Of a stretch of 60,489 nt of DNA, positions 9,447 through 58,577 are shown in pieces. The notes beneath the pieces were generated by a model that saw only the letters and a list, made by a program, of their open reading frames with translations, did no database searches and had not been told where the DNA came from. Both the position numbers and the translations under genes were made by a program. Source of the DNA: a virus; the IMG/VR virus record IMGVR_UViG_3300037336_000242, positions 1-60,489 of that record; one strand, given 5' to 3'. Position 1 is the first letter of the stretch; each line of letters opens with the position of its first letter.

Positions 9447-9480
9447 GGTTTTTTCCAAAATGCAATGAATGGCCTATCTT

Positions 9481-9510
9481 GCGTAGGCGTGGGCGTGGGC
9501 GTGGCGTAGG
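9481..9510. repeat. GGGCGT-type short tandem repeat
   Basis: Five imperfect hexamers of the form GGCGT(A/G) in the non-coding gap upstream of the 9446 gene, directly next to a GGAACC element. Possible protein-binding array or slippage product. Confidence 0.5.
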
Positions 9511-9518
9511 GTTCCGTT
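9510..9518 (-). promoter_or_regulatory. Late-operon GGAACC element (AACGGAACC)
   Basis: Copy of the phage-wide GGAACC word, 64 bp before the GTG of the 959-residue gene; see the late-promoter finding. Confidence 0.5.
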
Positions 9519-9551
9519 TGAGAAAGATTGAAAAATAATTGACGAAAGGTG

Positions 9552-9580
9552 TTGACGGTTACGGATAACCGAGTTACATT
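9552..9580 (+). promoter_or_regulatory. Promoter with embedded palindromic operator
   Basis: TTGACG at 9552-9557, 17-bp spacer, TACATT at 9575-9580. The spacer contains the perfect inverted repeat GGTTA-CGGA-TAACC (9557-9570), placed where a repressor would block RNA polymerase. It drives the 9661 gene and possibly read-through towards the CRISPR locus. Confidence 0.7.
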
Positions 9581-9660
9581 AGCTTCAACAGGACGGCAAC
9601 GGACTGTAGGGGATCACCCCGTAGTGACTTGGCACTGACAACCAAGATTAGGAAATCATC

Positions 9661-10467
9661 ATGCCAAAACAAGCAATCGTCACCCCAAAACCTGTTGTCC
9701 TCACCATCGAGCAATTGCAAGCAATGAGCTGGACTTGTGTGTCTCACTCTGTTGACACCGTAGAATGCGATCAAGAAACAGTCATTGTTGGCATCGAATA
9801 TGACGAAGAAGGCAATGAAGTTGACGTTGAGCGCGAGTATTTCAATCGCTACGCATACGGCACTGCAACAATGCGGGCGGGCGAAAATCCAGCGGTTGAA
9901 ATCTCATTTACATGGGAGGCCGGCCATGAGGAAAAACACAGCTATGAAGATAGCTTTGATTTTGACTTGTGCGTTCACGCTGACAGTGAAATCAAGCTGA
10001 CAGGCTGCAATCTGGTCGATGAGGATGGTGATGCAGTAGAGGGCTGGGAACTAGGCCATGCACTGACCGAAATCGCAGCGGGTTGCGAATGGGAGGCCAT
10101 GGTTCGCGCCGACCTGCCAATACCTGAAACCGAAGTGCTGGAAACGGCAACCGAAGGGCAAGACATCACTGTATGGCGCGATAACGCCCCTGAAATCGCA
10201 TTTAAAGGCGCATGTATTGGCGGCGCGTCAAGCCGTAGTCAGTACAACGACAACGGACGCTGGACAGACCTGTATCTGTACCAGACCGTAGGCGGCAAGT
10301 TTGTCTGCTACGAGCGCAATAATTCGCAGTGGCAAGGCGAGCGCACCAAGCACAAAGCCGAAGTCTGCACCAACCACGCCGAAGTCGTTGCATGGTTCGG
10401 TCAAGGCCGTGTAGCCAAAGAACTGTATGCAGACGCTGGCATCAGCAACGTGCAAGTGATCGACTAA
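9661..10467 (+). CDS. Hypothetical acidic protein, 268 aa
   Basis: First gene of the plus-strand accessory cassette. It is acidic and soluble, with no signal peptide. The C-terminal third (WTDLYLYQTVGGKFVCYERN and following) looks like a compact separate domain. It has its own promoter and operator upstream and a terminator downstream, so it is a self-contained unit between the late genes and the cas operon. No family recognised; the position would suit an accessory 'moron' function or a partner of the CRISPR system. Confidence 0.8.
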   Translation: MPKQAIVTPKPVVLTIEQLQAMSWTCVSHSVDTVECDQETVIVGIEYDEEGNEVDVEREYFNRYAYGTATMRAGENPAVEISFTWEAGHEEKHSYEDSFDFDLCVHADSEIKLTGCNLVDEDGDAVEGWELGHALTEIAAGCEWEAMVRADLPIPETEVLETATEGQDITVWRDNAPEIAFKGACIGGASSRSQYNDNGRWTDLYLYQTVGGKFVCYERNNSQWQGERTKHKAEVCTNHAEVVAWFGQGRVAKELYADAGISNVQVID

Positions 10468-10486
10468 TCAGACACACAAAAGCCAA

Positions 10487-10515
10487 AAGCCTAGCCGCGT
10501 GCTGGGCTTTTTTTA
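10487..10515 (+). terminator. Rho-independent terminator
   Basis: AAGCCTAGC and GCTGGGCTT form a nine-pair stem with one G-T pair around CGCGT, followed by seven T. It ends exactly where the first diverged CRISPR repeat begins. Confidence 0.85.
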
Positions 10516-10774
10516 TATCTCGGATTCGGGATTGGTCAAGCCAAACAACAACACCCTAGCTTCAAAGCTTAGTATCCCGTCACGCGGGATTGGTCGGAGC
10601 GTATGCTTTGCCCGTTCAGCAACATGATGGTATCCCGTCACACGCTGGATTATTCGATGATGATCTGGCTGGACTACCACCAAGATTCAGCATCTCGGAT
10701 TCGGGATTGGTCGGAATCACTGCCAAATGATTGGGGCAGCAAGACTGCATCCCGTAACACATGGGATTGGACTA
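10515..10774 (+). CRISPR. Diverged five-repeat CRISPR array upstream of the cas operon
   Basis: Five repeat-like elements begin at 10515, 10572, 10630, 10690 and 10747. Elements are 25-28 nt, but the four intervals (10540-10571, 10598-10629, 10658-10689, 10715-10746) are each exactly 32 nt, the spacer length of the main array. The elements keep ATC(C/T)CG...CGGGAT-type arms with different loops (GATT, CAC) and paired changes such as GT/AT in the last one; the third is the weakest. Most end in GGATTGGTC(G/A), the handle also seen in repeats 6-7 of the main array and in the lone repeat at 56875. There is no AT-rich leader. It ends 19 bp before the first gene of the operon. Confidence 0.8.
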
Positions 10775-10793
10775 GGTTTTACAAGGCACCGAC

Positions 10794-10994
10794 ATGGCAA
10801 TGACCAACAGAGAAAAGCAAGCCGCCTACCGCAAGCGAAACGCGGGGCTGATTGTAAAGGCGGTAATCACGCCACAGGCAAAAGAAGCACTTGATCGATT
10901 GGTTGCGGTTGAACCTACGCAATCACAAGGGCAAGTGATCAGTGAAGCATTGATACAGTTTAAGGACGGGAAAGATGAAAATGACACCGTTTAA
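10794..10994 (+). CDS. Small ribbon-helix-helix-like regulator, 66 aa
   Basis: The C-terminal part, LIVKAVITPQAKEALDRLV followed by a second helix with SEALIQF, has the strand-helix-helix spacing of ribbon-helix-helix DNA-binding proteins; the N-terminus is basic. It is the first gene of the type IV cas operon, overlaps csf3 by 20 nt, and follows the diverged array by 19 bp. It is therefore a good candidate autoregulator of the cas operon. It could be read as an antitoxin, but no toxin gene accompanies it. Confidence 0.65.
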   Translation: MAMTNREKQAAYRKRNAGLIVKAVITPQAKEALDRLVAVEPTQSQGQVISEALIQFKDGKDENDTV

Positions 10995-11619
10995 AGTCAC
11001 CTGCCACGTCGCCACCCCAATGCAGCTAGGCAGCCACCCGCTGCACCTAGACGGCTTGCTGTACTGGTTGGCTATCGAGCATCAAGCTGATGCACAAGAC
11101 GTGCTAGACGTTTGCCTAGACCAACAGGCGGGTATCTATAAAGCAAGCGCCTTGTGCTTTGCCCCACAGCCGCTAGAAATCGTCACCACCCGCGCCGCGT
11201 CGCATCCAACCTGCTGGAAATGGAATGAGTTTAGCCTGCCAACAAGCGCAAAAACCATTGTGCAAAAAGGTGGGCCGTACCGGTCGAGAATGACCAGCTA
11301 CACTGCCTACCAATGCAGCCAAGTCGTGTTTTTTGGCGTAGGCGATATGACCAAGATTCAGGCGTTACTGTCCACATGCAATGGTCTAGGTCGCAACAGC
11401 AACCAAGGTTGGGGCGAAATAACCGCGATTGAAATCGAGCCGATGGATCAGGATTGTTCGTGGTTTATGGATGATCAGATCATGCGGACGCTACCGCTGG
11501 ACTTAATCCCAAGCAACACAGATACAAGCCACGCGCTGCAAGGACTGGCAAGCATTGCACCGCCTTACACCACCACCGCCAAACAAGCCACACAATCCCC
11601 CGTTTTTCTAAAGGTATAA
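10975..11619 (+). CDS. csf3: Type IV CRISPR-Cas Csf3 (Cas5-like)
   Basis: 214-residue RAMP-fold protein of the type IV effector complex; Cas5-like subunits cap the 5' handle of the crRNA. Supporting features are the N-terminal 'MQLGSHPLHLDGLLYW' type opening of Csf3 proteins, a glycine-rich loop GLGRNSNQGWGEI near residue 140, and the position next to csf2. An ATG at 10981 is an alternative start. Expression is coupled to the small regulator by overlap. Subunit assignment rests on motifs and gene order, not on a search. Confidence 0.8.
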   Translation: MKMTPFKVTCHVATPMQLGSHPLHLDGLLYWLAIEHQADAQDVLDVCLDQQAGIYKASALCFAPQPLEIVTTRAASHPTCWKWNEFSLPTSAKTIVQKGGPYRSRMTSYTAYQCSQVVFFGVGDMTKIQALLSTCNGLGRNSNQGWGEITAIEIEPMDQDCSWFMDDQIMRTLPLDLIPSNTDTSHALQGLASIAPPYTTTAKQATQSPVFLKV

Positions 11620-11623
11620 CGCT

Positions 11624-12610
11624 ATGAAAACAATCTTTTTCGCTGGCAAAATCAAAACCGTATCACCGGTTGCCGTGACCGTTCCCGATACCGTCGGCAT
11701 GCCAAAAGATAGCGCCGGTAACGCCTATCTGCCTGCAAATAGCATCCGTGGCAAGTTGCGCCACAGCCTGCATGAAGCAATCGCACGCCATTATGCAGAT
11801 CAAGGCAAGCCGCTTACAGTCGATCAGCATTACATGCTTGGTAGTGGCGTAGACACAGCACGCGCACTGAAAGATACCAGCAGCAACATCGGTGCAAATA
11901 CCGCACGCCGCGCCGCCAATCCAGTATTGTCGGTTTTTGGCAATTGGGGCTTGGCTGGCAAGTTAGGCGTGGGCAGCGGCTACACTGGCACAAAGGCGGT
12001 TATTCACGGCGCGGGCGTTCGTAAGCACGTCGGCAAGGAGTGGCTAGATCAAATAATCGACCTATCGGAAATCGACTACTTAACCGAAATCCTAAGCCAA
12101 GACGGGCAAACCAGCCAAGACTCGCAACCGATCAAAGACCGCCAAAAACTGCTCAAGCGTGAACTGAAAGGCGCGGACGCTACCCGCAAAACCGAAATCA
12201 ATACTGAGCTGGCAGACCTTGATCAGCAGCTACGCGAACTCAAAGACTTGCGCACTGGGGCAAGCGAAAGCATCCAACGCCCGCTAGAAGGTTTTGAGGT
12301 GATCGACCACGGCACAACCATGCCGCACCGCATGATCTTAAAGAACCCAACAGACACCGAGCTACACACGGTGTTACTGAGCATTGCAGCGTGGGCGTAT
12401 GAGCCGATGATTGGTGGGCATCACAATCTTGGGTGCGGCAATATCGACGCAGAATGGGAAATCTACGAACAAGCATTTTTGTCGAATGCGCGTACCAAAA
12501 TTGGCACGGTCGGATTTAATGAAACGGGCTTTTTTGTCGAAGGCATTGTGTTTGATGCAGCGGCAACACTGCAACACATCACCACTGATTTTGACTTGGC
12601 ACAGGTATAA
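11624..12610 (+). CDS. csf2: Type IV CRISPR-Cas Csf2 (Cas7-like backbone)
   Basis: 328-residue Cas7-family protein that would form the helical backbone along the crRNA. It has the RAMP signature YLPANSIRGKLRHSLHEAI near residue 40, then FEVIDHGTTMPHRMIL and the glycine/histidine-rich GGHHNLGCGN near residue 270. A charged helical insertion (about residues 170-210) is probably the peripheral lobe. AAAGG lies before the start codon, and the gene follows csf3 by 4 bp and precedes csf1 by 2 bp. Confidence 0.85.
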   Translation: MKTIFFAGKIKTVSPVAVTVPDTVGMPKDSAGNAYLPANSIRGKLRHSLHEAIARHYADQGKPLTVDQHYMLGSGVDTARALKDTSSNIGANTARRAANPVLSVFGNWGLAGKLGVGSGYTGTKAVIHGAGVRKHVGKEWLDQIIDLSEIDYLTEILSQDGQTSQDSQPIKDRQKLLKRELKGADATRKTEINTELADLDQQLRELKDLRTGASESIQRPLEGFEVIDHGTTMPHRMILKNPTDTELHTVLLSIAAWAYEPMIGGHHNLGCGNIDAEWEIYEQAFLSNARTKIGTVGFNETGFFVEGIVFDAAATLQHITTDFDLAQV

Positions 12611-12612
12611 CC

Positions 12613-13359
12613 ATGAATGCCATCTTAGGCGCACGGCTTCGCGCAACTTTCGCGCCTGAAATGGCGAATGAAGCCCCACAAGATTGTAATTCAGACTGTG
12701 AAAACTGCGGGCGTAAGCCGTCGGAATATGGCGGCGTGGCGTATGTCAGCACGGACAGCTACAAGCGGCAATTGGCACACTGTCCCGATTGCCGACCGAT
12801 CAGCATTCAAGCCCCACAGACGCTAGGGATTGCGATTGAACCCGCTACGGGCTTTACCCTTGCCACATTCAAAGGCGGTTACTTGGTTGTCCCTGCGACT
12901 GACAAGCCATCACTACTTGTATCTGGCAAGTACCCTGCCAAAATCCACCAACACGCGGTTGACGTGGTGCCGCTTGGTGGACACGCTGCTAAAGCATGGT
13001 TATTCAGCAATCACCAAGCCGATAGCTATGTGTTAGAGCTATCGCCACGGCGTGAACGGTTTAGCCGCCATGCCATGCCATGTGACCATAATCACTTGGT
13101 GATTGCCACTACAAGCGGCGCGGCAAAAATCAGCCTATCTGACTGGCAAAATAGCCGTGACGCGCTACGCGGCATCGCCAAATACAAAGACGTGATCAGC
13201 TTGGCGCGTGGACTCACAGAGGGGCGCTTGCACTTGTCCAGCGACAAGGTACAAGCGGCATTAACACCCGAAATCATGGCGGTTTTATCCGCACTACCTA
13301 AAGACCCCATTTCGCGCTGTTTCGTGTTAGACGCGCTCAGTGGCTTGGAGGCTGTATGA
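12613..13359 (+). CDS. csf1: Type IV CRISPR-Cas Csf1 (large-subunit-like, zinc ribbon)
   Basis: 248-residue protein with an N-terminal zinc ribbon, CENC...HCPDC, the hallmark of Csf1, the type IV counterpart of the Cas8 large subunit. Its TGA overlaps the ATG of the next gene (ATGA at 13356). It lacks nuclease motifs, as expected for a type IV complex that acts without a Cas3 nuclease. Confidence 0.8.
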   Translation: MNAILGARLRATFAPEMANEAPQDCNSDCENCGRKPSEYGGVAYVSTDSYKRQLAHCPDCRPISIQAPQTLGIAIEPATGFTLATFKGGYLVVPATDKPSLLVSGKYPAKIHQHAVDVVPLGGHAAKAWLFSNHQADSYVLELSPRRERFSRHAMPCDHNHLVIATTSGAAKISLSDWQNSRDALRGIAKYKDVISLARGLTEGRLHLSSDKVQAALTPEIMAVLSALPKDPISRCFVLDALSGLEAV

Positions 13360-13886
13360 ATCACTTATTTGCACTAAAGCCGCACAATGAAGCGCACAAG
13401 GCGGTTATGGCTGTTTTGCACAAGACAGGGCAAGACTGGAAAACCAAAGGCACGCGCAAAATTCAGTTTGCCAATCTTGGCAGCCTGATCTTGGTTCGCA
13501 CCAATCAGCAGCCAACAGGCATCCCGTGCAAAGCAGATGCGCCGGTATTCAGCACAGGCCAACGCCTAACGCTACAGGTCATCCTACCCGCACAAAAACG
13601 GGCGCGGGACTACCGCACAGCACCCGCAATCCGCACACAGTCAGAAATGAATGATCTTGCATCGGCATTGCTTGCTGAAAATGGCTTGTCTGTGGATAGC
13701 ATCGAGGGCAAGCCAGCACATTCTGCTTTTTTCAAAAAAGACGGTCGGACAACGGTTATTGCTGCAATGCACTTTGTCGCCACCGCCACCGTTACCGACC
13801 CGCAAGCCCTTGCGATTGCCTATACCCAAGGCGTCGGCCGCGAGAAATCGTTAGGGTTTGGCATGCTCATTGTGAAGGAGGTTTGA
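13356..13886 (+). CDS. cas6: Cas6-family crRNA endonuclease of the type IV system
   Basis: 176-residue RAMP protein ending in the Cas6 glycine-rich loop GVGREKSLGFGML. Cas6 enzymes cut at the base of the repeat hairpin to give crRNAs. Several histidines in the first 25 residues could supply the general base. Translation is coupled to csf1. The same enzyme is the obvious reader of the diverged upstream repeats and of the lone repeat at 56875, since all keep a hairpin with ATCCCG/CGGGAT-type arms. Csf5 and Cas6e would be equivalent names; the subfamily is not resolved here. Confidence 0.82.
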   Translation: MNHLFALKPHNEAHKAVMAVLHKTGQDWKTKGTRKIQFANLGSLILVRTNQQPTGIPCKADAPVFSTGQRLTLQVILPAQKRARDYRTAPAIRTQSEMNDLASALLAENGLSVDSIEGKPAHSAFFKKDGRTTVIAAMHFVATATVTDPQALAIAYTQGVGREKSLGFGMLIVKEV

Positions 13887-13888
13887 TT

Positions 13889-15796
13889 ATGTTTGATCTA
13901 GTTAAAAAGGCGTTCGCGCCGACTGGTTTTTTGGTCGAGCAAGGCGGGCGGCATACGCCAGAACAAGGCAACTACGCGCTATCCGTAGCCGTAACCCTGC
14001 TATCACAAGGCAAGATGAATCTAAGCCTGTTAGAAGCTGAAACAGGCGTAGGAAAGTCGCTAGGCTACCTGATTCCTAGCTTGATCTGGTTGGCTCAAAA
14101 TCCCAAAAAACAGATTGTGGTCAGCACGTTTACCCGCGCACTGCAAAAGCAATTGATCGACGAAGATGCACAGAAAGCCTGTCAGTTTTTGGTAGCCAGT
14201 GGCTTGCCCGCTGTTAAGGTCGCCTACAGAATGGGCAAGGCTTCGTTTTTCTCAATTGATCGTGTGGCACTCCTGATTGCTGAAATTCAAACCGAACAAA
14301 ACAAGGCTTTGCTGCATGAGTTTTACCAGTACGCGCTGCATTCAGCATCACATGGTTCTGGCCTGTGGCGTGACTGGATCGACGAACACGGGCAGTTTCC
14401 ATGCGACATTAGCCCCAACAGCATCGGCTTGATTGGCGACCAAACCAGCATCGCTTATGAAGCGCATCTGACCGCGTCCAAAGAAGCCCAACTGCTGATC
14501 ACCAATCACGCCACCATGCTGATTGCAGTTAGCCGCAAAATCCTAGACCTTGATCGGGTTCACGCCATTATTTTTGATGAAGCACACGAACTCGAAGCAG
14601 CGGCCAAAAGTTTCTTAAACACCCGCCTAAACTTTACCGAGCTACTGAGCAAGACGCACGGTATGGATGGACACGCCGCAATCGCTGACTTACTAAAACA
14701 GTGGACAGAGGATCTATCCAGCCACGTCAACAAAAGCCTGATCAATAGCGAACACCCCGCGCTTATGCTACAGCAGCAGGGCAACGCTGAAAAACTGCTT
14801 GACCTGCTAAAAGGCACGCTAGGCAAACTAAGCACCAAGCAACGCAAGGCCGACTCTGGCATCGAGCTTGCCGAACTTGTCGAGCGAGTCGGTTCGTGGT
14901 GCGCCGGTGCGGAAAGCACGCAGCGTAAGGCAATCGCGTTTTCTGACAAAAAGTCTATTCCTAGCCTTGCGATGGTTTCGAGTGCGGCCGCGCCTTTCCT
15001 ACGCAATCTGTTTGAGCAACTGAATAGCAATGTGATTATGACCAGTGCAACACTGGCAGATATGCAGCCGCAAACATCGTTTTTTAACATCAAATTCAGT
15101 GCAGGTTTGCGTGACTTTACAATCTGCCAAGAACGGCGTTATAGCCCTAATCAGTACGGCACAATGACATTCGCAGTCACTGAGTATGAAGGCGGTATCT
15201 TTAGCGGTAAAAGTGACGATGAAGCTGATGAAGTTTGCTACAGCGCGGCATGGCTCAAGCAAACAGCAGAAACAATCATGTCAAGCCGTGGCAAGACGCT
15301 AGTGCTGGTTCCGTCATTTCGTGAGGCCAAGTTATTGGCGGGTTTGTTGCCAAAAGATCAGGTGATTTGTCACCAGCCAAACCAGCCAAACTACCAAGTC
15401 ACACAGACGTTAATCAGTGGCGATAGTCGTATCCTCATTACGCCGTCATGCTGGGAAGGGGTCAATATCCGCAATGCCGACGGTTCGCAGGTTTTAGAGA
15501 CGATTGTGATTAGCCGCATTCCCTACGCGCCGCCTGATTTGGTGCGCCTTACTGCACTGAGCAACTACCTAAAGGACAAGTCAGAGGCAAACAAAATCAT
15601 CCATCTAATGTCACGCCAAGCCGCGTTACGCAAGGTCAAGCAGGGTATTGGGCGCGGCATTCGTAGCCCAAATGATCGGGTGCATGTAGTCTTTTGCGAC
15701 CCGCGCATCAAGGCGGCGCGGCATGCAATCCCTAAGCGGTTTGTGGCGGCGTTTGATCTGGCAGTCAACAAGGGTAAAATCACCAATGTTTTTTAG
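13889..15796 (+). CDS. dinG: Type IV CRISPR-associated DinG-like helicase (Csf4)
   Basis: 635-residue superfamily 2 helicase of the XPD/DinG group, the accessory helicase that defines subtype IV-A-like loci and unwinds targeted DNA. Walker A is ETGVGKS (about residue 48), the DEAH box is IIFDEAHE (about residue 230) and motif VI is QGIGRGIRS near the C-terminus. Only two cysteines lie between motifs I and II, so the four-cysteine iron-sulphur cluster of housekeeping DinG is absent, as is usual for the CRISPR version. The start at 13889 is chosen for the strong GAAGGAGG eight bases upstream. Confidence 0.88.
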   Translation: MFDLVKKAFAPTGFLVEQGGRHTPEQGNYALSVAVTLLSQGKMNLSLLEAETGVGKSLGYLIPSLIWLAQNPKKQIVVSTFTRALQKQLIDEDAQKACQFLVASGLPAVKVAYRMGKASFFSIDRVALLIAEIQTEQNKALLHEFYQYALHSASHGSGLWRDWIDEHGQFPCDISPNSIGLIGDQTSIAYEAHLTASKEAQLLITNHATMLIAVSRKILDLDRVHAIIFDEAHELEAAAKSFLNTRLNFTELLSKTHGMDGHAAIADLLKQWTEDLSSHVNKSLINSEHPALMLQQQGNAEKLLDLLKGTLGKLSTKQRKADSGIELAELVERVGSWCAGAESTQRKAIAFSDKKSIPSLAMVSSAAAPFLRNLFEQLNSNVIMTSATLADMQPQTSFFNIKFSAGLRDFTICQERRYSPNQYGTMTFAVTEYEGGIFSGKSDDEADEVCYSAAWLKQTAETIMSSRGKTLVLVPSFREAKLLAGLLPKDQVICHQPNQPNYQVTQTLISGDSRILITPSCWEGVNIRNADGSQVLETIVISRIPYAPPDLVRLTALSNYLKDKSEANKIIHLMSRQAALRKVKQGIGRGIRSPNDRVHVVFCDPRIKAARHAIPKRFVAAFDLAVNKGKITNVF

Positions 15797-15911
15797 TCGC
15801 CTTTAACGCACTGTTTTTGCTTTGCTTTTTTTGGGTCACTGAAAATTGGGTTAAATGCTGAATTTAGCCGATACTCTTTAAAAATCAGATGGTTTTGGTT
15901 GGATGGTTACA
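15797..15911 (+). promoter_or_regulatory. AT-rich CRISPR leader
   Basis: T-rich, non-coding 115 bp between the dinG stop and the first perfect repeat. The repeats next to it are identical and the distal ones degenerate, which fixes it as the leader side. No convincing -35/-10 pair was found. It contains ATTTAGC, the same word as in the repeat handle. Confidence 0.65.
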
Positions 15912-16299
15912 GTATCCCGTCAGGTGCGGGATTTAGCGGAAAACATACGCCCGCAAACTGGCAAACAAGGCGTATCCCGTCAGGTGCGGGATTTAGCGGA
16001 AAAGTGACTTGATTGTCACTGTTACCCTTTTGTATCCCGTCAGGTGCGGGATTTAGCGGAGTGTTAAGGCGTTACAAGACCAACGACTCTAGTATCCCGT
16101 CAGGTGCGGGATTTAGCGGTTGTCGAAGCATTCAGGTTGCCAGAGTGCAAAGTATCCCGTCAGGTGCGGGATTTAGCGGAACTGGTAGATTTGGTCGGGT
16201 TCGATCGGTTGGTATCCCGTTAGGTACGGGATTGGTCGGTCTTGTCCTTCACCAAGTCGAGCGTAACCCGCGTATCCCGTCGTGTACGGGATTGGTTGC
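15912..16299 (+). CRISPR. Main CRISPR array: seven 28-nt repeats, six 32-nt spacers
   Basis: Repeats start every 60 bp at 15912, 15972, 16032, 16092, 16152, 16212 and 16272. Repeats 1-5 are identical (GTATCCCGT...GCGGGATTTAGCGG) and form an ATCCCGT/GCGGGAT hairpin. Repeats 6 and 7 differ in the loop and carry the handle ATTGGTCGG or ATTGGTTGC. All six spacers are 32 nt. Spacer 2 contains the inverted repeat AGTGAC/GTCACT. The array ends 3 bp before the stop codon of the convergent phage gene. No cas1 or cas2 is present, so acquisition must rely on a host system. Confidence 0.97.
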
Positions 16300-16302
16300 C
16301 GC

Positions 16303-16938
16303 CTACCAGTCGCCCGCGTTGCCTAGCATCATCGGATACATTTTCTGAAAGCCAAGCTGAAGCTGCAAAGGGTCACGGTCGCTGCCAGACAAGTCTAGCG
16401 AACTGCTGGTAAGCGCCACAATCCAGTTAAAATCTGCTGGTTTGGTTTTTTTATTGTTTCGGTCAAATAAATATATCCGCATGTTTAGCAGGTAATCGTA
16501 GGGTAGCCCTTGCGTCCCGTCCCGCTTGAACATCGCCCTCTTAATGGCTTGCACCATCCTGATAATATCGCCATTGGCTGTTTCTAAAAAAGTGACTTGC
16601 ACCTCACTAGAGCTATTGCCCGTAATGTAATTTTGTTGGTGTGCCCCAATTTGCACACTGTCATTTTGCGCATCGAGTAGCCCAAAATTAACCGACGTTG
16701 CAAGCCACGGCAAAGCCCAGCCCAGACCATCAGGCTGCAATGCCAACACAGACCCAAGCACCCCGCCTGCACTGATTGGACTTGGATTTACTGGTGATAG
16801 CTCTACAACATAATGCGCCTTTGATAGCGTACCAAGTGCGTACACCTGCTTATACGCCGCCTTCAATTCCTTAGAATCCAAACCAGACCACGGTGCATTA
16901 CTCGCCTTTTTTGAAATATCTATATCTATTCCGGCCAT
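16303..16938 (-). CDS. Virion protein, 211 aa, possible tail tube
   Basis: Structural-looking protein without a recognised signature. The C-terminal half (MRIYLFDRNNKK, DFNWIVALTSSSLDLSGSDRDPLQL) has the beta-rich texture of tail-tube or baseplate proteins; I cannot choose between them. It starts on the last base of the portal gene (shared TAATG) and is the last gene of the rightmost-to-left late transcript, ending 3 bp from the CRISPR array. Confidence 0.65.
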   Translation of the reverse strand: MAGIDIDISKKASNAPWSGLDSKELKAAYKQVYALGTLSKAHYVVELSPVNPSPISAGGVLGSVLALQPDGLGWALPWLATSVNFGLLDAQNDSVQIGAHQQNYITGNSSSEVQVTFLETANGDIIRMVQAIKRAMFKRDGTQGLPYDYLLNMRIYLFDRNNKKTKPADFNWIVALTSSSLDLSGSDRDPLQLQLGFQKMYPMMLGNAGDW

Positions 16939-18554
16939 TACTCATCCTCCATGCCATCGTCTTGCTCAGTATCTGCATCGTCTGTAGCTGGATCATCGGC
17001 TTGTGGCGGTTGCCCTTGCGGGTCGCCGCCTTCTTCACCTTCAGGCGCGGCTGGCTTCAAGTCTTTGGCTAGTTTTTCGGCTTCCTCAAAAGTCAGCCCT
17101 GCCTGTTTCTCCAGCAGCATCGCCAAGTTTTGCGTGGACAGGCCAACTTCTTTAATGATGCTAAGCGCTTGCCCCGTCATCATTAGGCCATTCATGCGGT
17201 TATTCTGGTTAGTCAGTTGCTCAGTCGCCATAGCCGCTTGATCGCTGTAGAAGTCAAAATCCCACGGCTGATCAGCTTCATCAAACGCCTCACCATACCG
17301 ATAACCCCAATCCAACGCAGCCAAGCGATTCAAGGCTTGACTGAGCGCCTGCCGAACCATTACCGACCGTCTGGCAATACTGGCCGACGTGTGAAACGCC
17401 GCGCCATCGCCTAAGCCGCCCGCCAACATATCAGCCCAACCGACCTGTGACATATCAATGCCGATACCGCCTAGCAGCCGCTGCATATTAAAGCGTAGGT
17501 ACTCGATATTGAGGGGTGCGCCGCGTTGCCCTGCAATGTCACCAACAGGATTTAACACCTGTTTTTCGCCCCACGCTGGCAACACATGCCACTGAGTAGC
17601 CCAAACCGATTCACCGCCCGTTAAGGCTTCACGGACGTAGGATTCATGGCTTTTTACGATCTGCTGCAAACCTTGCTTGTATTTTTTTTGCTGTTCGGGG
17701 GGCATGCCAGACATATCGACCGACAAAAACATCTGCTTCACAGAATCAGCAATTTGTTGGCTATTCAGGCTTGCCAGTGACACATGCACGTTTTGCCACG
17801 GCTCTTCGACCTCAAACAAAAATGAACCGCCCACGGGTGCGGCAATAATCGGCAATTCGCTACGGTTATTCGATTGCAGCATTCTAGCCCTGATAATACC
17901 TTGCACGGGTTCCCACTGTGGCACATGGGTAGTCCGTGGCATCTTCATGCGCACAAGCTGGTTTGTGGTAAGTTTGGTGATTGCCCGTTCCCAATCGCGT
18001 GATTCTAACGCCTGAAAGCCGACGGTGCGTCCGCCTTGCTCAAAGGACTGGATCAGCGGTGGAAAGGTAAATTCATCACAGATAATATCGACCACGCCCA
18101 CCCCTCTCTCGGCATAGTTGCGCACATAGGCGTCACCATAGCGCAGGGCGTCTGAGCAAACCTTGAATACAATCCGGTTAATCAATGGCTCTAAATGCCG
18201 CCGCCGCGACTCTACTTTTTTGCGCATTTCCGCGTTGCGCAACCCCTTGCCACGGTAGCGCACAGCAGGAACCATAAACACCATATCACCACGCGCCGCG
18301 TCGCCACCAAGCGCAGCCGTCACATGCAAGTTCAGTGCTTCCGATAGCGATGGATCAACCGACATTCGCTGCCATTGCGTGTAAATATCCTTTCTGTGTC
18401 GCCGCTTAGTTTCTTTGGTTTCGTAGGTGCCAAGCGTGAAAGGGGCTTGCGCCTCATAAATCGGGTTCACGTCGTTAATGCTTGGCATTTGCTCAGTCTG
18501 AGCTGCTAAGCGGTTCGATATAAGCCGATCTGCTAACCAGTCGCCAAAGCTCAT
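16938..18554 (-). CDS. Portal protein, 538 aa
   Basis: Probable portal, the dodecameric gate for DNA packaging. Size fits, and the middle contains DALRYGDAYVRNYAERG and later EYLRFNMQRLLGGIGID, which resemble the wing/clip and crown regions of myophage portals; the C-terminal tail is long, proline-rich and acidic (PQGQPPQADDPATDDADTEQDDG). It is placed far from the terminase, which is unusual. A terminator-like hairpin directly abuts its start codon and no Shine-Dalgarno is visible. Confidence 0.75.
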   Translation of the reverse strand: MSFGDWLADRLISNRLAAQTEQMPSINDVNPIYEAQAPFTLGTYETKETKRRHRKDIYTQWQRMSVDPSLSEALNLHVTAALGGDAARGDMVFMVPAVRYRGKGLRNAEMRKKVESRRRHLEPLINRIVFKVCSDALRYGDAYVRNYAERGVGVVDIICDEFTFPPLIQSFEQGGRTVGFQALESRDWERAITKLTTNQLVRMKMPRTTHVPQWEPVQGIIRARMLQSNNRSELPIIAAPVGGSFLFEVEEPWQNVHVSLASLNSQQIADSVKQMFLSVDMSGMPPEQQKKYKQGLQQIVKSHESYVREALTGGESVWATQWHVLPAWGEKQVLNPVGDIAGQRGAPLNIEYLRFNMQRLLGGIGIDMSQVGWADMLAGGLGDGAAFHTSASIARRSVMVRQALSQALNRLAALDWGYRYGEAFDEADQPWDFDFYSDQAAMATEQLTNQNNRMNGLMMTGQALSIIKEVGLSTQNLAMLLEKQAGLTFEEAEKLAKDLKPAAPEGEEGGDPQGQPPQADDPATDDADTEQDDGMEDE

Positions 18555-45324: not shown

Positions 45325-45460
45325 TTCAGCCACCCAATAAATGCGAACAAATGGGGTGGCGAGTTAAGTGGAATTCGCATTATCAGTCACTAGGCTACTG
45401 ACGCATCCGAGGATGCTTCCACCTAACCCGCCAAAACGGGTATGAAACCATTTTCAGCAC
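45325..45460 (-). promoter_or_regulatory. Antirepressor leader with targets for the c4-like RNA
   Basis: Between the c4-like RNA and ant. It holds GCCTAGTGACT (minus 45395-45385) and GGATGCG (minus 45408-45402), complementary to two c4 segments, plus a GCATCC/GGATGC hairpin and a GCCACCC/GGGTGGC pairing close to the ribosome binding site. A short 18-codon frame starts near 45446. Confidence 0.7.
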
Positions 45461-45488
45461 ACACGCTAAAAAATGACTCAAGATAGGC

Positions 45489-45566
45489 AATAAAAAACCG
45501 CTTACGCGGCCTTTCGGCCTAGTGACTTTGCAGGATGCGAAACCTGACACCCGATTTTGCGGGTGC
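45489..45566 (-). ncRNA. c4: c4-like antisense RNA controlling the antirepressor
   Basis: Starts at the promoter below, folds a CACCCG/CGGGTG hairpin, shows CGCATCC (45539-45533) and AGTCACTAGGC (45527-45517) in open segments, and ends at a terminator (CCGC-GTAA-GCGG and T6). Both open segments are perfectly complementary (7 and 11 nt) to the leader of ant downstream, in the same order, the way c4 of P1/P7 silences its antirepressor transcript. Confidence 0.82.
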
Positions 45567-49537: not shown

Positions 49538-49588
49538 AAAACACCCCTTTTGGCTTCATCATCGGTGCCTAGCCACCACGCTAGACAG

Positions 49589-49613
49589 ATGCCCCACGGT
49601 AATTATGGGGCAT
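49589..49613. terminator. Hairpin after the HU gene
   Basis: ATGCCCCA and TGGGGCAT arms around a nine-base loop. Only a short T-run follows on either strand, so termination is uncertain. Confidence 0.4.
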
Positions 49614-49622
49614 TTCGATTGA

Positions 49623-54225: not shown

Positions 54226-55070
54226 GCTGCACCCCTTGCCATTCCTGCAATCCAAGCAGGTACAGCACGACCCGCCGCCGCCATCGCGTCGCAATACTCA
54301 GTCGGATTTAAAAAGGGATCAGGCCATTCCATGGTTACCGCTTCACGCTGCACCAATGACTCAATTTGCCGCTGTTTGCGCTCTGCCAGCTCAGCATTCA
54401 GCCGTGCTTGTTTTTCCGGTAGTGACTCGGCGCCCATCGAAAACATCGCTTTCATCGCTGCAATTTGTGCCGCCGCCGCGCCCGCAATCGGGGCAGATTC
54501 AGATTTGATCTGTCCGATCATGGCCACGACTTGTTTTTGCTCGATTGCAGTCATCGGTTGTGTCTGTTCGATCTGTTGCATACGCTCTGCACGGATTGCA
54601 GCGGGTTCGTGCCCAAGCGACATAAACCACTCTGGTTTTTTGCCAGACATTTCGGCACGGGTCACAATCTGCGAGTAAGCCTCTTTAAAACCTTTTGAGT
54701 GGTCGAAAGAATGCTTACCGTCGTTAAGCGCTCTCACAGCGTCCCACGCCTGCCCAATCTCTGGGATGGTACGAACGGTCACGGACTCGTCTTGCGCGGC
54801 CATAGCGAGGCTTAGAGCGCGTTCTGGGCTAGGGTATCCAGTGCCGCTAACGTCCTTTGCAACTTCGATCAGTTCGCCCATCGCAATTCGCCGCCCTTGC
54901 ACAGCTACTTGCTCGATTGAGCGACGCGCTACGTCGTAACCGTAAGGGGTTAGTAATCGACCAATCATTTTTAAAGTGGTCGGCTCAAGCGATTGGCCGT
55001 TCAGCATTTGCCACGCGCCTGTCAACAGGTCGGCAATTTCGCGTTTTTGGTCTATCGTCATTTCGATCAT
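54222..55070 (-). CDS. Phage replication-associated protein (helicase-loader-like), 282 aa
   Basis: Follows the origin-binding-type gene directly. The segment YPSPERALSLAMAAQDESVTV and later GKHSFDHSKGFKEAYSQIV resembles a conserved family of phage replication accessory proteins, which includes possible helicase loaders (lambda P position). Highly helical, glutamine-rich C-terminus. Start at 55070, overlapping the upstream TGA. Confidence 0.65.
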   Translation of the reverse strand: MIEMTIDQKREIADLLTGAWQMLNGQSLEPTTLKMIGRLLTPYGYDVARRSIEQVAVQGRRIAMGELIEVAKDVSGTGYPSPERALSLAMAAQDESVTVRTIPEIGQAWDAVRALNDGKHSFDHSKGFKEAYSQIVTRAEMSGKKPEWFMSLGHEPAAIRAERMQQIEQTQPMTAIEQKQVVAMIGQIKSESAPIAGAAAAQIAAMKAMFSMGAESLPEKQARLNAELAERKQRQIESLVQREAVTMEWPDPFLNPTEYCDAMAAAGRAVPAWIAGMARGAA

Positions 55071-56047
55071 CACCAAGGCTCTCCATTCGGGTTTTGAGCA
55101 CATAGCTCATCAATCGCATTGCGTGAGGTGCGGGATTGCTCGACCCGCTTGATATCTTGGCGGGTGATCTGGCGGCCAGTGAGGTACTGGGTGCGGATTG
55201 CTTGGGCATCGGTAATCATCAAACCGACTGGGTGAGTTTTTTGCAGATAGAACGGGGTGTCGAGATTGATATAAAAACGCGCTAGGACAGGTGCAAGCTC
55301 GATACCAACCACATCAACAAACTTACTGATCTGGGTATTGATCTGAGCGTTACGCAGTGGCTCGATGCCGTAGCGGTTGAAATACGCATTTGCATAGGCA
55401 TTCCATGTATCCGCATTGCCCTGCTGTTTTTCGGTTTTGACAGCCACAGCTTTTGACCGTTTTGGTTTCTCGGTGACTTCGATTGGTTCTGGTTTTGACA
55501 GCTCCAACACTTGCGCCTTGAGCGCTTCGATCTGACCTTTCAAAGACTGATTTTCTGTCTCTAAAATTTCATTCGATTTTTTTAATTCAGCGATAGCGAT
55601 AGCGTCATCGCAATGTTTGTTTTGTTGGTTGGTTAGTTGTAATAAGGAAGGAAATGATGCTTTTGACACCTGACCCCTATGCTTTTGACACCTAAGGTCA
55701 TCGCTTTTGACACCTAAGGTCGCCATCTTCAGGGGTCGATTTGACACCTGACTACGGGTCATATTGACACCTAAGGTTGCACCGACATTCAGGGTAATTT
55801 CATCAGCAACCCGCACCCCATTTTTGTATGCTGATCGGGTACTGATCATGCCGTTTTGACGCAGCCATTTGACGTTACGCTTGACCGTGCTGATACTCTG
55901 ATCAATCGACTCTGCAATCGTTTCTTGCGCACGAAAACAAGTGTTAGTGTCTTTGCGGGTAAACCGTGCCAAATGCACCAGTAGCGGCTTAACGCCTGTT
56001 GGCAGTGTCGGCAATGCCTCTGCCCAATCCGTAGCTTGTTTGCTCAT
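55070..56047 (-). CDS. Replication initiator (lambda O-like position), 325 aa
   Basis: N-terminal winged-helix (QETIAESIDQSISTVKRNVKWL, residues 42-65), a low-complexity linker encoded by iteron-like DNA repeats, a leucine-rich coiled coil (SNEILETENQSLKGQIEALK, about 155-185) and a C-terminal domain. This is the layout of phage initiators that bind repeats inside their own gene and hand over to a helicase loader. Confidence 0.75.
   Translation of the reverse strand: MSKQATDWAEALPTLPTGVKPLLVHLARFTRKDTNTCFRAQETIAESIDQSISTVKRNVKWLRQNGMISTRSAYKNGVRVADEITLNVGATLGVNMTRSQVSNRPLKMATLGVKSDDLRCQKHRGQVSKASFPSLLQLTNQQNKHCDDAIAIAELKKSNEILETENQSLKGQIEALKAQVLELSKPEPIEVTEKPKRSKAVAVKTEKQQGNADTWNAYANAYFNRYGIEPLRNAQINTQISKFVDVVGIELAPVLARFYINLDTPFYLQKTHPVGLMITDAQAIRTQYLTGRQITRQDIKRVEQSRTSRNAIDELCAQNPNGEPW
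55659..55780 (+). repeat. Iteron-like repeats, probable replication origin
   Basis: Five copies of TTGACACCT(A/G)A begin at 55663, 55685, 55707, 55741 and 55764; the first three are spaced exactly 22 bp. Three copies extend to TTGACACCTAAGGT. They lie in the linker of the initiator gene next to an A/T-rich stretch, as in lambda ori. Confidence 0.78.
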
Positions 56048-56472
56048 TGCTTGACCCCATAGAATCTAACGCGGCCATCTGGCTCGCTGCAAAAAATGCG
56101 ACCGATTTGGCACATATCCCGCAAGTGTTTTTTAATCGTGTTTTTGTTGATCAGCAGCGCTTCAGCGATAACGTCACTGCTGACCAAGCCATTAGAATTT
56201 TTAATAAAATCGGCTATGGCGTTGCGCTTATCTATCACGCCTTGTCGCTGTGACTCATTGTGCGCCGCGATGCCTGTTGAGCTTAGCGCCGTGGGGTTAA
56301 AAGGGATTGCCACGCCGCTGTGGTTCGCCGGTGTAACCGCTTGCCCACCGTTCGCCAAAAACGCATTGACTTGCGCTTGCAAAAATGCAGACTGCAATTG
56401 CTTTTGTGACAGCGTATTGACTAGGCTACTTGCCCGCTTTACGTCTAGTAATTCAGCGTTGCTTAGATTCAC
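56044..56472 (-). CDS. HTH regulator, 142 aa
   Basis: C-terminal winged helix (SSDVIAEALLINKNTIKKHL followed by GRIFCSEPDGRVRFYG). GTG at 56472 is preferred as start because it overlaps the upstream TGA (GTGA) and has GGGGG upstream; ATG at 56517 would overlap by 49 bp. Early leftward operon. Confidence 0.65.
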   Translation of the reverse strand: MNLSNAELLDVKRASSLVNTLSQKQLQSAFLQAQVNAFLANGGQAVTPANHSGVAIPFNPTALSSTGIAAHNESQRQGVIDKRNAIADFIKNSNGLVSSDVIAEALLINKNTIKKHLRDMCQIGRIFCSEPDGRVRFYGVKQ

Positions 56473-56774
56473 GATTGCACCCCCAACAATTCCTTTCCCG
56501 CGTCGGTTAGACGCCATCCCTGTGGCAGTTCGCCATCGCCTTTAACCAGCCCCATCAGTGCAAAACCGTTTAGATACCGCTGCACACTACGAAGTGTGTA
56601 CTGATTCCCACTTTTTGTTAGTGAGTCGCGTAGGTCTACCGTGCTCATACGCGACGGATGACCCGCTTTAAGCAAAACCAGCATTGCAACCAGTCGCGCT
56701 GTAATCGCAGTTGTTGAACAATCGCGGGTGGTTGTCGCTAAGCGACTTGGTATTGCTTTAATGACTGCATTCAT
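56469..56774 (-). CDS. Winged-helix protein, 101 aa
   Basis: Residues 30-85 read as a winged helix (LVAMLVLLKAGHPSRMSTV, then SVQRYLNGFALMGLV). Probably an early regulator or initiator accessory. First complete leftward gene after the lone CRISPR repeat. Confidence 0.65.
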   Translation of the reverse strand: MNAVIKAIPSRLATTTRDCSTTAITARLVAMLVLLKAGHPSRMSTVDLRDSLTKSGNQYTLRSVQRYLNGFALMGLVKGDGELPQGWRLTDAGKELLGVQS

Positions 56775-56837
56775 TGCATAATCACCTTGCGTTGTTGCTG
56801 TTGTTCGGCAAACGGTTACACCCGCTTGCCACCTAAG

Positions 56838-56866
56838 CCCCGCTCATTCACTTGAGCGGGGTTTTT
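56838..56866 (+). terminator. Terminator on the plus strand next to the lone repeat
   Basis: CCCCGCTC and GAGCGGGG arms with T5. It is oriented against the leftward early transcript and would stop antisense transcription reaching the repeat; on the minus strand it is only a hairpin 3' of the repeat. Confidence 0.75.
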
Positions 56867-56874
56867 GCTGTTTT

Positions 56875-56900
56875 GACCAATCCCGCAAAGCGCGGGATAC
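56875..56900 (-). CRISPR. Solitary CRISPR repeat in the early leftward transcript
   Basis: Minus strand GTATCCCGC...GCGGGATTGGTC, a 26-nt unit with a perfect seven-pair stem (ATCCCGC/GCGGGAT) and loop GCTTT. It is the same family as the repeats at 10515-10774 and 15912-16299 and carries their older handle GGATTGGTC. No second repeat occurs 60 bp to either side. Confidence 0.85.
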
Positions 56901-56923: not shown

Positions 56924-57046
56924 TCAGGCTACGGTGCAATCACGACTGGACTTGTTTTGGTTCGAGAAAACCGCAACAAGTAAGGAGGTAGTCGCTTGCA
57001 CTGCATCCGTTTTGCTGAACCTGCGGCACGGTTTGCTTATCCGCAT
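56924..57046 (-). CDS. Possible small protein, 40 aa
   Basis: Open frame starting MRISKPCRRFSKTDAVQATT with AAGG five bases before the ATG, 35 bp downstream of the Cro-like gene. It ends 24 bp before the lone repeat. Basic and serine-rich. Coding nature uncertain; the rest of 56775-57081 is non-coding apart from the terminator and the repeat. Confidence 0.35.
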   Translation of the reverse strand: MRISKPCRRFSKTDAVQATTSLLVAVFSNQNKSSRDCTVA

Positions 57047-57081
57047 CCAGCCTTAAGCCGCTGGCAGCCCACAACAAAGGG

Positions 57082-57309
57082 TTAATTGGAAAAAAAGAAA
57101 TCTACAAGCCCGTCATAAGTCAGCAAGCCGTCACTAGCATCTGCCAGTTTTCGGATGGTTTCCTTGCGCGGCTGTTTTCTTCGATAGACCAGATGAGTGT
57201 TTATGTACTTGCTGGACACGCCCGCACTATCTGCAAAATTTTGGCGATCTGGCTCATTCAATGCCCGCCAAAAAGCGTGCAAGTTCGACTGATTTTTCTG
57301 AGGCTGCAT
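57082..57309 (-). CDS. Cro-like repressor, 75 aa
   Basis: Small HTH protein (LNEPDRQNFADSAGVSSKYIN, then RRKQPRKETIRKLADAS) of the YdaS/Cro type, divergent from the CI-like gene across an operator region. It would be the first gene of the leftward early transcript. Confidence 0.8.
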   Translation of the reverse strand: MQPQKNQSNLHAFWRALNEPDRQNFADSAGVSSKYINTHLVYRRKQPRKETIRKLADASDGLLTYDGLVDFFFSN

Positions 57310-57408: not shown

Positions 57409-58155
57409 ATGAGTAGTCGGCTTTTGTCGGTTGCTGCGAGTGAGATCATGCTTGACGATATCTATGAGGTACGCAGAAAAAACGTACTGTCCCTACAGAA
57501 ACAGTTCGGACTAGATCGGAAAGATTTAGCGGAAAAAATAGGCTTGTCTTATGCGCTAATGAGTCACTACATTGGGAAAACACCAACCAAGCGAATTGGT
57601 GACAGTGTTGCACGCAGGACAGAAGTCGCATTTAACAAACCTGAAGGCTACTTAGATCAAAACATGAGTGCATCCGTGAATCACTCGCTAACATTCCAAT
57701 CAGATATTGCGAGATATGGGCAACAGTCCCTGCTGATCGAAGGCGTGCAACCGACCCGCTTAGTGCCAGTTTTAAGCTGGGTGCAAGCTGGCAACTGGAC
57801 ACCCGCTATTGCAGCCACTGAAGCGGACGCGACCGAATGGCTGCCGTGGTATCCGACTTGTGGCAAAAATGGCTTTGCGCTGATCGTATCCGGCGAATCT
57901 ATGCTGCCAGACTTTCAGCCAGACGACCGAATTTATGTAAATCCCGATTGCGAAGTGGATAGTTTGCGCACCGGTGATCTTGTCGTGGTGTTTTGCGATG
58001 AAGACGGCACAGCCACGTTTAAGCGTCTGGTAGTCGAACCCAACAATATGCACCTAGAGCCACTGAATCCGAAGTACAAGGACGACAAGAAAATGAGCCT
58101 CAAGTATGGTTGCCGGCTTATCGGTAAAGTTGTTGGAATGCACCGTTATATTTGA
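57409..58155 (+). CDS. CI-like repressor with S24 peptidase domain, 248 aa
   Basis: N-terminal HTH (LDRKDLAEKIGLSYALMSHYIG, residues 35-56) and C-terminal LexA/S24 domain with catalytic serine in SGESMLPDFQPDD and lysine in ATFKRLV. RecA-stimulated self-cleavage would trigger induction; the antirepressor at 44458 offers a second route. Confidence 0.92.
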   Translation: MSSRLLSVAASEIMLDDIYEVRRKNVLSLQKQFGLDRKDLAEKIGLSYALMSHYIGKTPTKRIGDSVARRTEVAFNKPEGYLDQNMSASVNHSLTFQSDIARYGQQSLLIEGVQPTRLVPVLSWVQAGNWTPAIAATEADATEWLPWYPTCGKNGFALIVSGESMLPDFQPDDRIYVNPDCEVDSLRTGDLVVVFCDEDGTATFKRLVVEPNNMHLEPLNPKYKDDKKMSLKYGCRLIGKVVGMHRYI

Positions 58156-58171: not shown

Positions 58172-58408
58172 ATGGATACACACGCCTTGATGGGGCAAAT
58201 AGACGCGCTAGAAATGATTCTGGTGCCACTGGCAAACAATCAGCCAAAACTCGTATTTGAGGTGATACAGCTACTTCGCAGCAATATGCCAGAGCTGTTA
58301 AGCGTGATAGAAAGTCGATCAAAACAACCGCTTCAACACAAGGCTGGTTTCTACGCAGAAATATCAAAAATCGAAAAAATCTGCACCGACTTATCAGTTT
58401 CGCCGTAA
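58172..58408 (+). CDS. Hypothetical helical protein, 78 aa
   Basis: Starts MDTHALMGQIDALEMILVPL with AGAGG upstream, 16 bp after the repressor gene, so it is expressed in lysogens. Entirely helical; function unknown. Stops 2 bp before the solo IS right end. Confidence 0.65.
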   Translation: MDTHALMGQIDALEMILVPLANNQPKLVFEVIQLLRSNMPELLSVIESRSKQPLQHKAGFYAEISKIEKICTDLSVSP

Positions 58409-58410
58409 AA

Positions 58411-58440
58411 CCTCGTCCTTTAGGTCGAGGAGGATGTCAA
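58411..58440 (+). repeat. Solo IS605-type right end, copy 2
   Basis: Identical over 30 bp to 478-507 but with no tnpB, left end or other IS sequence beside it. It supplies the stop codon of the small minus-strand gene that follows. It may be the scar of a deleted copy or a stand-alone guide-RNA end. Confidence 0.85.
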
Positions 58441-58577
58441 TGCTGGCAATGGAGTCCAGCACACCGTCTTAGCTTTAACTGAGCAGCCATTTTTTTAATA
58501 ACAGCCTTAATTTCAGGAAGATGGATCAAGCCCTGATAGGTTTGATTGTCCGAATTTTCATTTTTCACGTCTGACAC
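58437..58577 (-). pseudogene. Small minus-strand gene truncated by the IS right end, 46 aa
   Basis: Starts at a GTG with GGGGGA seven bases upstream and reads SDVKNENSDNQTYQGLIHLP and a basic helix. The stop codon comes from the IS end, so the original protein was probably longer. A terminator hairpin lies upstream. Confidence 0.5.

Follow-up and report, generated by a model that had tools for sequence, protein, structure and literature searches.

A solitary type IV-A-like CRISPR repeat in the early gene region of a phage-plasmid with its own csf genes: a possible Racr-like RNA decoy

The window analysed here, the whole stretch of 60,489 bp, contains baseplate, portal, tail sheath, capsid and DarA-like genes, and on the evidence of these genes its phage belongs with the Acinetobacter phage-plasmids around vB_AbaM_ABMM1. 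The family also includes Acinetobacter plasmids of 62–83 kb and the IMG/VR contigs L154–L159. In three of these contigs (L154, L156 and L158), the tail gene found at 16306–16941 of the window is followed by the DarA-like gene found at 6570–9473, with 82–216 bp between the matches, and the same two genes are also near each other in ABMM1 and in plasmids CP110255, CP029389 and CP016898. In the window, a csf module (9474–16305) lies between them. This module was therefore either inserted in the lineage of the window or lost in all of these relatives, and the tail/DarA-like junction appears to be a clean cargo site. A search for csf2 gave no match in eight related records, and only the Acinetobacter TGL-Y2 plasmid, the positive control, was positive among the nine records searched; csf2 was likewise not found in INPHARED. 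Two sequences reminiscent of mobile elements were also observed in the record: a fragment with a TnpB/Cas12f-like TNB domain (137–508), and a 34-nt sequence (97% identical) present near both record ends, with one copy at 58408–58441, which resembles an IS200/IS605-type right end.

The csf module encodes, all on the plus strand, csf3 (Cas5; 10975–11619; TIGR03116, E 3.5e-19), csf2 (Cas7; 11624–12610), csf1 (Cas8-like; 12613–13359), a full-length cas6 (CasE/Cse3-like; 13356–13886) and a dinG (csf4) helicase gene (13883–15796), and downstream of these genes is a main CRISPR array (15912–16299, plus strand) with seven repeats of 28 nt and 32-nt spacers. With csf1 called from the gene that opens the type IV locus of the Acinetobacter TGL-Y2 plasmid (25.7% identity, E 7e-15), the type IV-A set is complete, in agreement with an earlier note on this DNA, which had attributed a type IV system to the same phage. 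The gene content and array resemble those of the type IV-A systems of Klebsiella IV-A3 plasmids and the TGL-Y2 plasmid. The gene order differs, being csf3–csf2–csf1–cas6–dinG here and csf1–cas6–dinG–csf3–csf2 in the systems compared, and the window is further distinguished from them by its phage-plasmid carrier, an extra degenerate array and a lone repeat. No relatives of Cas6 or Csf2 were found in IMG/VR.

The extra array (10515–10775, plus strand), which consists of five repeats upstream of csf3, had been missed in the earlier note, which gave some 40 kb between the lone repeat and 'the array'. The two arrays differ in their tags. Main repeats 1–5, which are leader-proximal, are identical and carry the 7-nt tag TTAGCGG, close to the TTATCGG of Klebsiella plasmid IV-A3 repeats, which have the same layout. 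At the trailer end, the tag is TGGTCGG in repeat 6 and TGGTTGC in repeat 7, and the switch looks as if the active repeat of the array was replaced. In the degenerate array, tags are mostly of the TGGTC type and loops are shortened or stems damaged; two of its repeats have in common the 21-nt stretch ATCTCGGATTCGGGATTGGTC. The spacers of the degenerate array show no match above background within the window. The first 12 nt of main-array spacer 2 match a tail gene of the phage itself (16588–16619, plus strand; 20/32 overall), and this self-match is probably due to chance, with approximately 0.1 expected over all spacers.

Far from both arrays, within a leftward run of early genes, a lone repeat unit, GTATCCCGCGCTTTGCGGGATTGGTC, occupies positions 56900–56875 of the minus strand. 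On re-reading, the sequence, strand and coordinates first given for this 26-nt unit were all correct, as was the perfect seven-pair stem claimed for it (ATCCCGC/GCGGGAT), which encloses a 5-nt loop and has a folding energy of −11.7 kcal/mol. If the unit is extended by 2 nt, its tag reads UGGUCAA. The local repeats have the form GTATCCCG-N7-CGGGATT followed by the tag, and the lone unit and the array repeats have 19 fixed bases in common at the exact 7-nt array spacing (GTATCCCG-N7-CGGGATTGGTC). Approximately 4e-7 matches to this 19-base pattern would be expected in the 60,489-bp window, or 2e-5 with one mismatch allowed. Identity, computed against the local repeats only, is 71–77% to the nearest of them (20/28 to main repeat 6, or 20/26 over the unit as first delimited). 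No further full or partial repeat lies within 100 bp, and comparison of the flanks with both arrays revealed no spacer, leader or other array sequence; a duplicated piece of array was rejected on this lack of similarity. By these sequence features the unit is a genuine solitary CRISPR repeat.

The unit is intergenic. It lies in a 307-nt gap, containing only short unsupported ORFs of up to 45 aa, between a gene for a Cro-like regulator (57082–57309, minus strand; phrog_35, E 1.8e-5) and the first early ORF downstream (56469–56774, minus strand), and thus where it had originally been placed. A CI/S24-like repressor is encoded on the plus strand at 57409–58155. The leftward genes around the unit, which include that of an O-like replication-initiation protein (55070–56047, minus strand), have ends that overlap or nearly overlap. 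This gene order fits the earlier assignment of the unit to an early lytic transcript, but the promoter evidence does not add to it: a sigma-70-like search gave no promoter-like site within 250 bp upstream, and the nearest such site (57369–57341, minus strand), located upstream of cro and 441 nt from the unit, is at chance level. Transcription across the unit is thus predicted from gene order alone. In five annotated relatives, as read from their annotation tables, at most about 46 nt separate the regulator beside the repressor from the gene after it; the long leader is therefore a feature of the window's lineage.

The folding of the 307-nt gap is more stable than that of shuffled sequence (z = −3.8), and the 180 nt upstream of the unit are strongly structured. 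The 5′ part of the cro-distal leader (56999–57070, minus strand) gave a sub-threshold match to the Proteo-phage-1 RNA (18.4 bits against a gathering score of 42), and Rfam matches to the lone hairpin itself were weak and sub-threshold only. A terminator-like hairpin of 12 pairs with a T-rich tail adjoins the unit at a distance of 10 nt (56835–56864, plus strand); the minus strand also forms a strong hairpin there and has no U tract. The lambda nut site sits just after cro. Both the position and the adjoining hairpin could therefore be taken to indicate an ordinary hairpin, such as a terminator or nut-like site, that resembles a repeat by chance. However, a chance hairpin was rejected on the 19-base match at fixed spacing (4e-7 expected), a terminator has no need of the ATTGGTC tag, and the minus strand lacks a U tract, so that this explanation is scarcely credible.

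Other RNA elements were observed elsewhere in the window. A type II hammerhead ribozyme is predicted in the early gene region (49548–49620, minus strand; 55.2 bits against a gathering score of 37), and isrK and C4 antisense RNAs are predicted upstream of an antirepressor-like gene (45352–45566, minus strand), as in P1/N15-type phages. C4 is also present in the related plasmids L163 and L166, and isrK in L166.

Comparison of the lone unit with the other repeats reveals both conservation and divergence. All of the repeats fold into a stem of 6 or 7 bp (one with an internal mismatch) and a loop of 3–5 nt, and at −11.7 kcal/mol the lone hairpin exceeds the other 12 (−3.2 to −9.9) in stability. Its closing pair is C–G, versus U–G or U–A in the array repeats, and relative to the U–A form has changed on both sides. 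Four of the five loop bases have diverged from the array repeats, and the remaining stem bases, the 5′ GT and the TGGTC are unchanged. The last two bases of the tag are AA instead of GG (UGGUCAA, not UGGUCGG). The GGATTGGTC handle described in the earlier note is present in the lone unit, and is common to main repeats 6 and 7 (in repeat 7 up to GGATTGGT) and the degenerate array, but it is not the handle of main repeats 1–5, which end in GGATTTAGCGG instead. The lone unit is thus of the TGGTC type, like the older repeats and unlike the five that dominate the main array. Main repeat 7 resembles it in that the hairpin is retained and the tag end lost; the tag of repeat 7 yields no crRNA, because no spacer-repeat unit comes after it.

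Type IV-A complexes, as seen in their structures, have the 3′ hairpin of the crRNA capped by Cas6 and its 5′ tag of 7–8 nt held by Cas5 (PMC11519345). Given these structures, the kept hairpin and lost tag end suggest that the feature conserved in the lone unit, if any, is Cas6 binding, and the pattern is more in line with a Cas6 substrate or sink than with a repeat that makes guides. Selection is not provable from one copy, and the unit was noticed through those very matches.

The same comparison bears on the possibility that the unit is a neutral relic, now functionless, of an older array from which one repeat was copied or left behind by recombination. The genome does contain a decaying array, the lone unit has the older TGGTC tag, and it is not conserved in any relative found, all of which would be in keeping with such an origin. 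However, its stem is intact and has gained strength through the two-sided change, in contrast to the wobbles or breaks in the stems of most degenerate-array repeats, and leader, spacer and other array sequence are absent from its flanks. We consider a relic unlikely.

The repeat is private to the window's phage within the databases searched (IMG/VR, INPHARED, PLSDB and GTDB). An IMG/VR scan with the pattern ATCCCGN{3,9}CGGGATTGGTC matched some 80 other stretches, once each and mostly in one near-identical context, and these matches look like coding-sequence coincidences. A second IMG/VR scan, with variants of the 3′ tag, gave one single match, apparently coding, in an unrelated phage. No array of the repeat was found in 84,980 GTDB genomes, in which the strict pattern gave five single matches (about the chance expectation), and BLAST of the arrays against INPHARED phages and PLSDB plasmids found nothing. 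Apart from such chance or coding coincidences, therefore, none of these collections holds an array of a host or other element that could be the source of the repeat, and the outside arrays with closer repeats that the earlier note had envisaged did not come to light in any of the four. Near relatives of the early region that would allow a conservation test were not found, the relatives of the repressor being only distant.

Ectopic repeats can form guide RNAs in the style of CreA (PMC9458426), and the lone unit might similarly give rise to a crRNA-like guide (CreA or scaRNA style), with the bases 3′ of the repeat acting as spacer and a Csf complex aimed at a promoter. In common with CreA, the repeat lies outside an array, has diverged from the array repeats, and has Cas genes in the same genome; in addition, an 8-nt seed match is present just upstream of the next gene (site at 56771). 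It differs from CreA and other ectopic-repeat guides in that there is one repeat only, the hairpin is kept and the tag end has changed from CGG to CAA, and no target was found and no toxin gene recognized; such guides have a functional 5′ tag and, as a rule, a second repeat. A 9-bp hairpin takes up most of the would-be spacer. Matches of a spacer-like segment to the nearby promoter, a feature of CreA, are at background only, as are seed matches (12–38 sites in the window) and the best full-length matches. With no target above background in the window, this candidate was rejected, and such a guide is very improbable.

A closer parallel may be provided by the RNA anti-CRISPRs (Racrs) of phages. 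The survey of Camara-Wilpert et al. (2023) predicts solitary repeat units for all CRISPR types except VI (PMC10651486); a type IV solitary unit is therefore not new as a kind. In that study, SRUFinder searches required at least 90% identity to a known CRISPR repeat, candidates were chosen with a promoter within 250 bp upstream, and Racr tests covered I-C, I-E, I-F and V-A. Like the Racrs, the unit in the window is a single repeat-like hairpin, cognate-like as RNA, which is intergenic in a phage, lies more than 100 bp from any other repeat and would mimic the Cas6 hairpin. Unlike them, it has its cognate Cas system encoded in the same genome, is placed downstream of cro in an early operon, with no obvious promoter in front of it, and is 71–77% identical to the nearest local repeat versus at least 90%. 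Neither 90% identity, as measured against the local repeats, nor a promoter within 250 bp upstream was found. By sequence, then, the unit is Racr-like but not a filed Racr, and what is unusual in this phage is the combination of a cognate system in the same genome and a unit placed in the early operon.

The reading that we prefer, over a relic or a cut site acting in cis, is a trans-acting, Racr-like RNA decoy, although we hold it tentatively and put it at a little less than an even chance. On transcription of the leftward operon, the Cas6 of a matching type IV-A system, which may belong to the phage itself or to a related resident element, would bind the hairpin and probably cleave it. Cas6, and perhaps Csf2, would then be tied up on an RNA lacking a proper 5′ tag, leaving fewer working Csf complexes and hence a net inhibition. 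Cas6f binds and processes RacrIF1, which has a filament of Cas7f on it and neither Cas5f nor Cas8f, because the processed RNA has no 5′ handle (PMC10651486). A similar course with Cas6 and Csf2 could be followed in the window's phage. The decoy RNA would come first after entry or induction, and would therefore most likely help the phage to escape the type IV-A system of a resident relative, or to damp its own system during lytic growth, two targets that the data do not separate. The earlier note, which had suggested that the RNA could shut off the phage's own Csf complex in lytic growth or act against a type IV system of a host or competitor, is thus partly supported.

Several features count in favour of a decoy: the match beyond chance, its absence elsewhere, the strongest hairpin, the closing pair changed on both sides and the lost tag end, together with the lack of a second repeat, of a credible target and of array similarity in the flanks, and the I-F-like repeat of a sister phage-plasmid described below. 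Counting against it are the promoter-like site 441 nt away at chance level, an identity of just 71–77%, and the presence of the cognate system in the same genome, so that a benefit has to be assumed. There is also no relative with the same leader, which makes a conservation test impossible, and the structured 180 nt upstream may hinder a Csf2 filament.

Alternatively, the unit may act in cis. Cas6 would cleave the early mRNA downstream of cro and ahead of the replication genes, and type IV-A expression, in a lysogen or from a resident relative, would tune the early operon; the cro message would keep a Cas6-capped 3′ hairpin and the downstream message would gain a new 5′ end. The unit's place in the operon, with the regulator on one side and the first early gene on the other, is consistent with this, as are the full-length Cas6 gene, the retention of the hairpin with loss of the guide-making tag end, and the other structured RNA in the leader; however, the same features would suit a trans-acting decoy equally. 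We know of no well-documented natural precedent for a cis-acting Cas6 cut site in an early mRNA, and think such a role improbable.

The preferred reading, a decoy acting in trans, gains some support from a second lone repeat in the family. The phage-plasmid NZ_CP029389.2 (L167) of A. defluvii contains one type I-F-like repeat at 10049–10076, solitary and intergenic, which matches Rfam CRISPR-DR4 at the gathering score of 35 bits and has four mismatches to what we take to be the I-F consensus. A terminator lies after it on the same strand. On these sequence features it is a candidate I-F RNA anti-CRISPR. It resembles the unit in the window in being a lone intergenic repeat in a related phage-plasmid, and differs in its I-F-like type, its position, the same-strand terminator and the lack of a csf2 match. 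Lone repeats are thus met twice among these related phages, each time for a different CRISPR type, which supports, but does not prove, a use for them.

It is possible, if doubtful, that a phage with a type IV-A system switches it off through a matching repeat RNA in its early operon, or has its early mRNA cut by Cas6, and in this way ties CRISPR to the lysis–lysogeny decision. Should the unit work as proposed, one phage would naturally combine a CRISPR system with an RNA that inhibits it, the latter coupled to the early lytic genes. The pair would offer a simple test of the control of phage-borne type IV-A systems, and of whether the role of lone repeats extends from attacking host CRISPR to self-control. 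On the same condition, and once functionally tested, the unit would be a type IV Racr, extending the I-C, I-E, I-F and V-A examples of PMC10651486.
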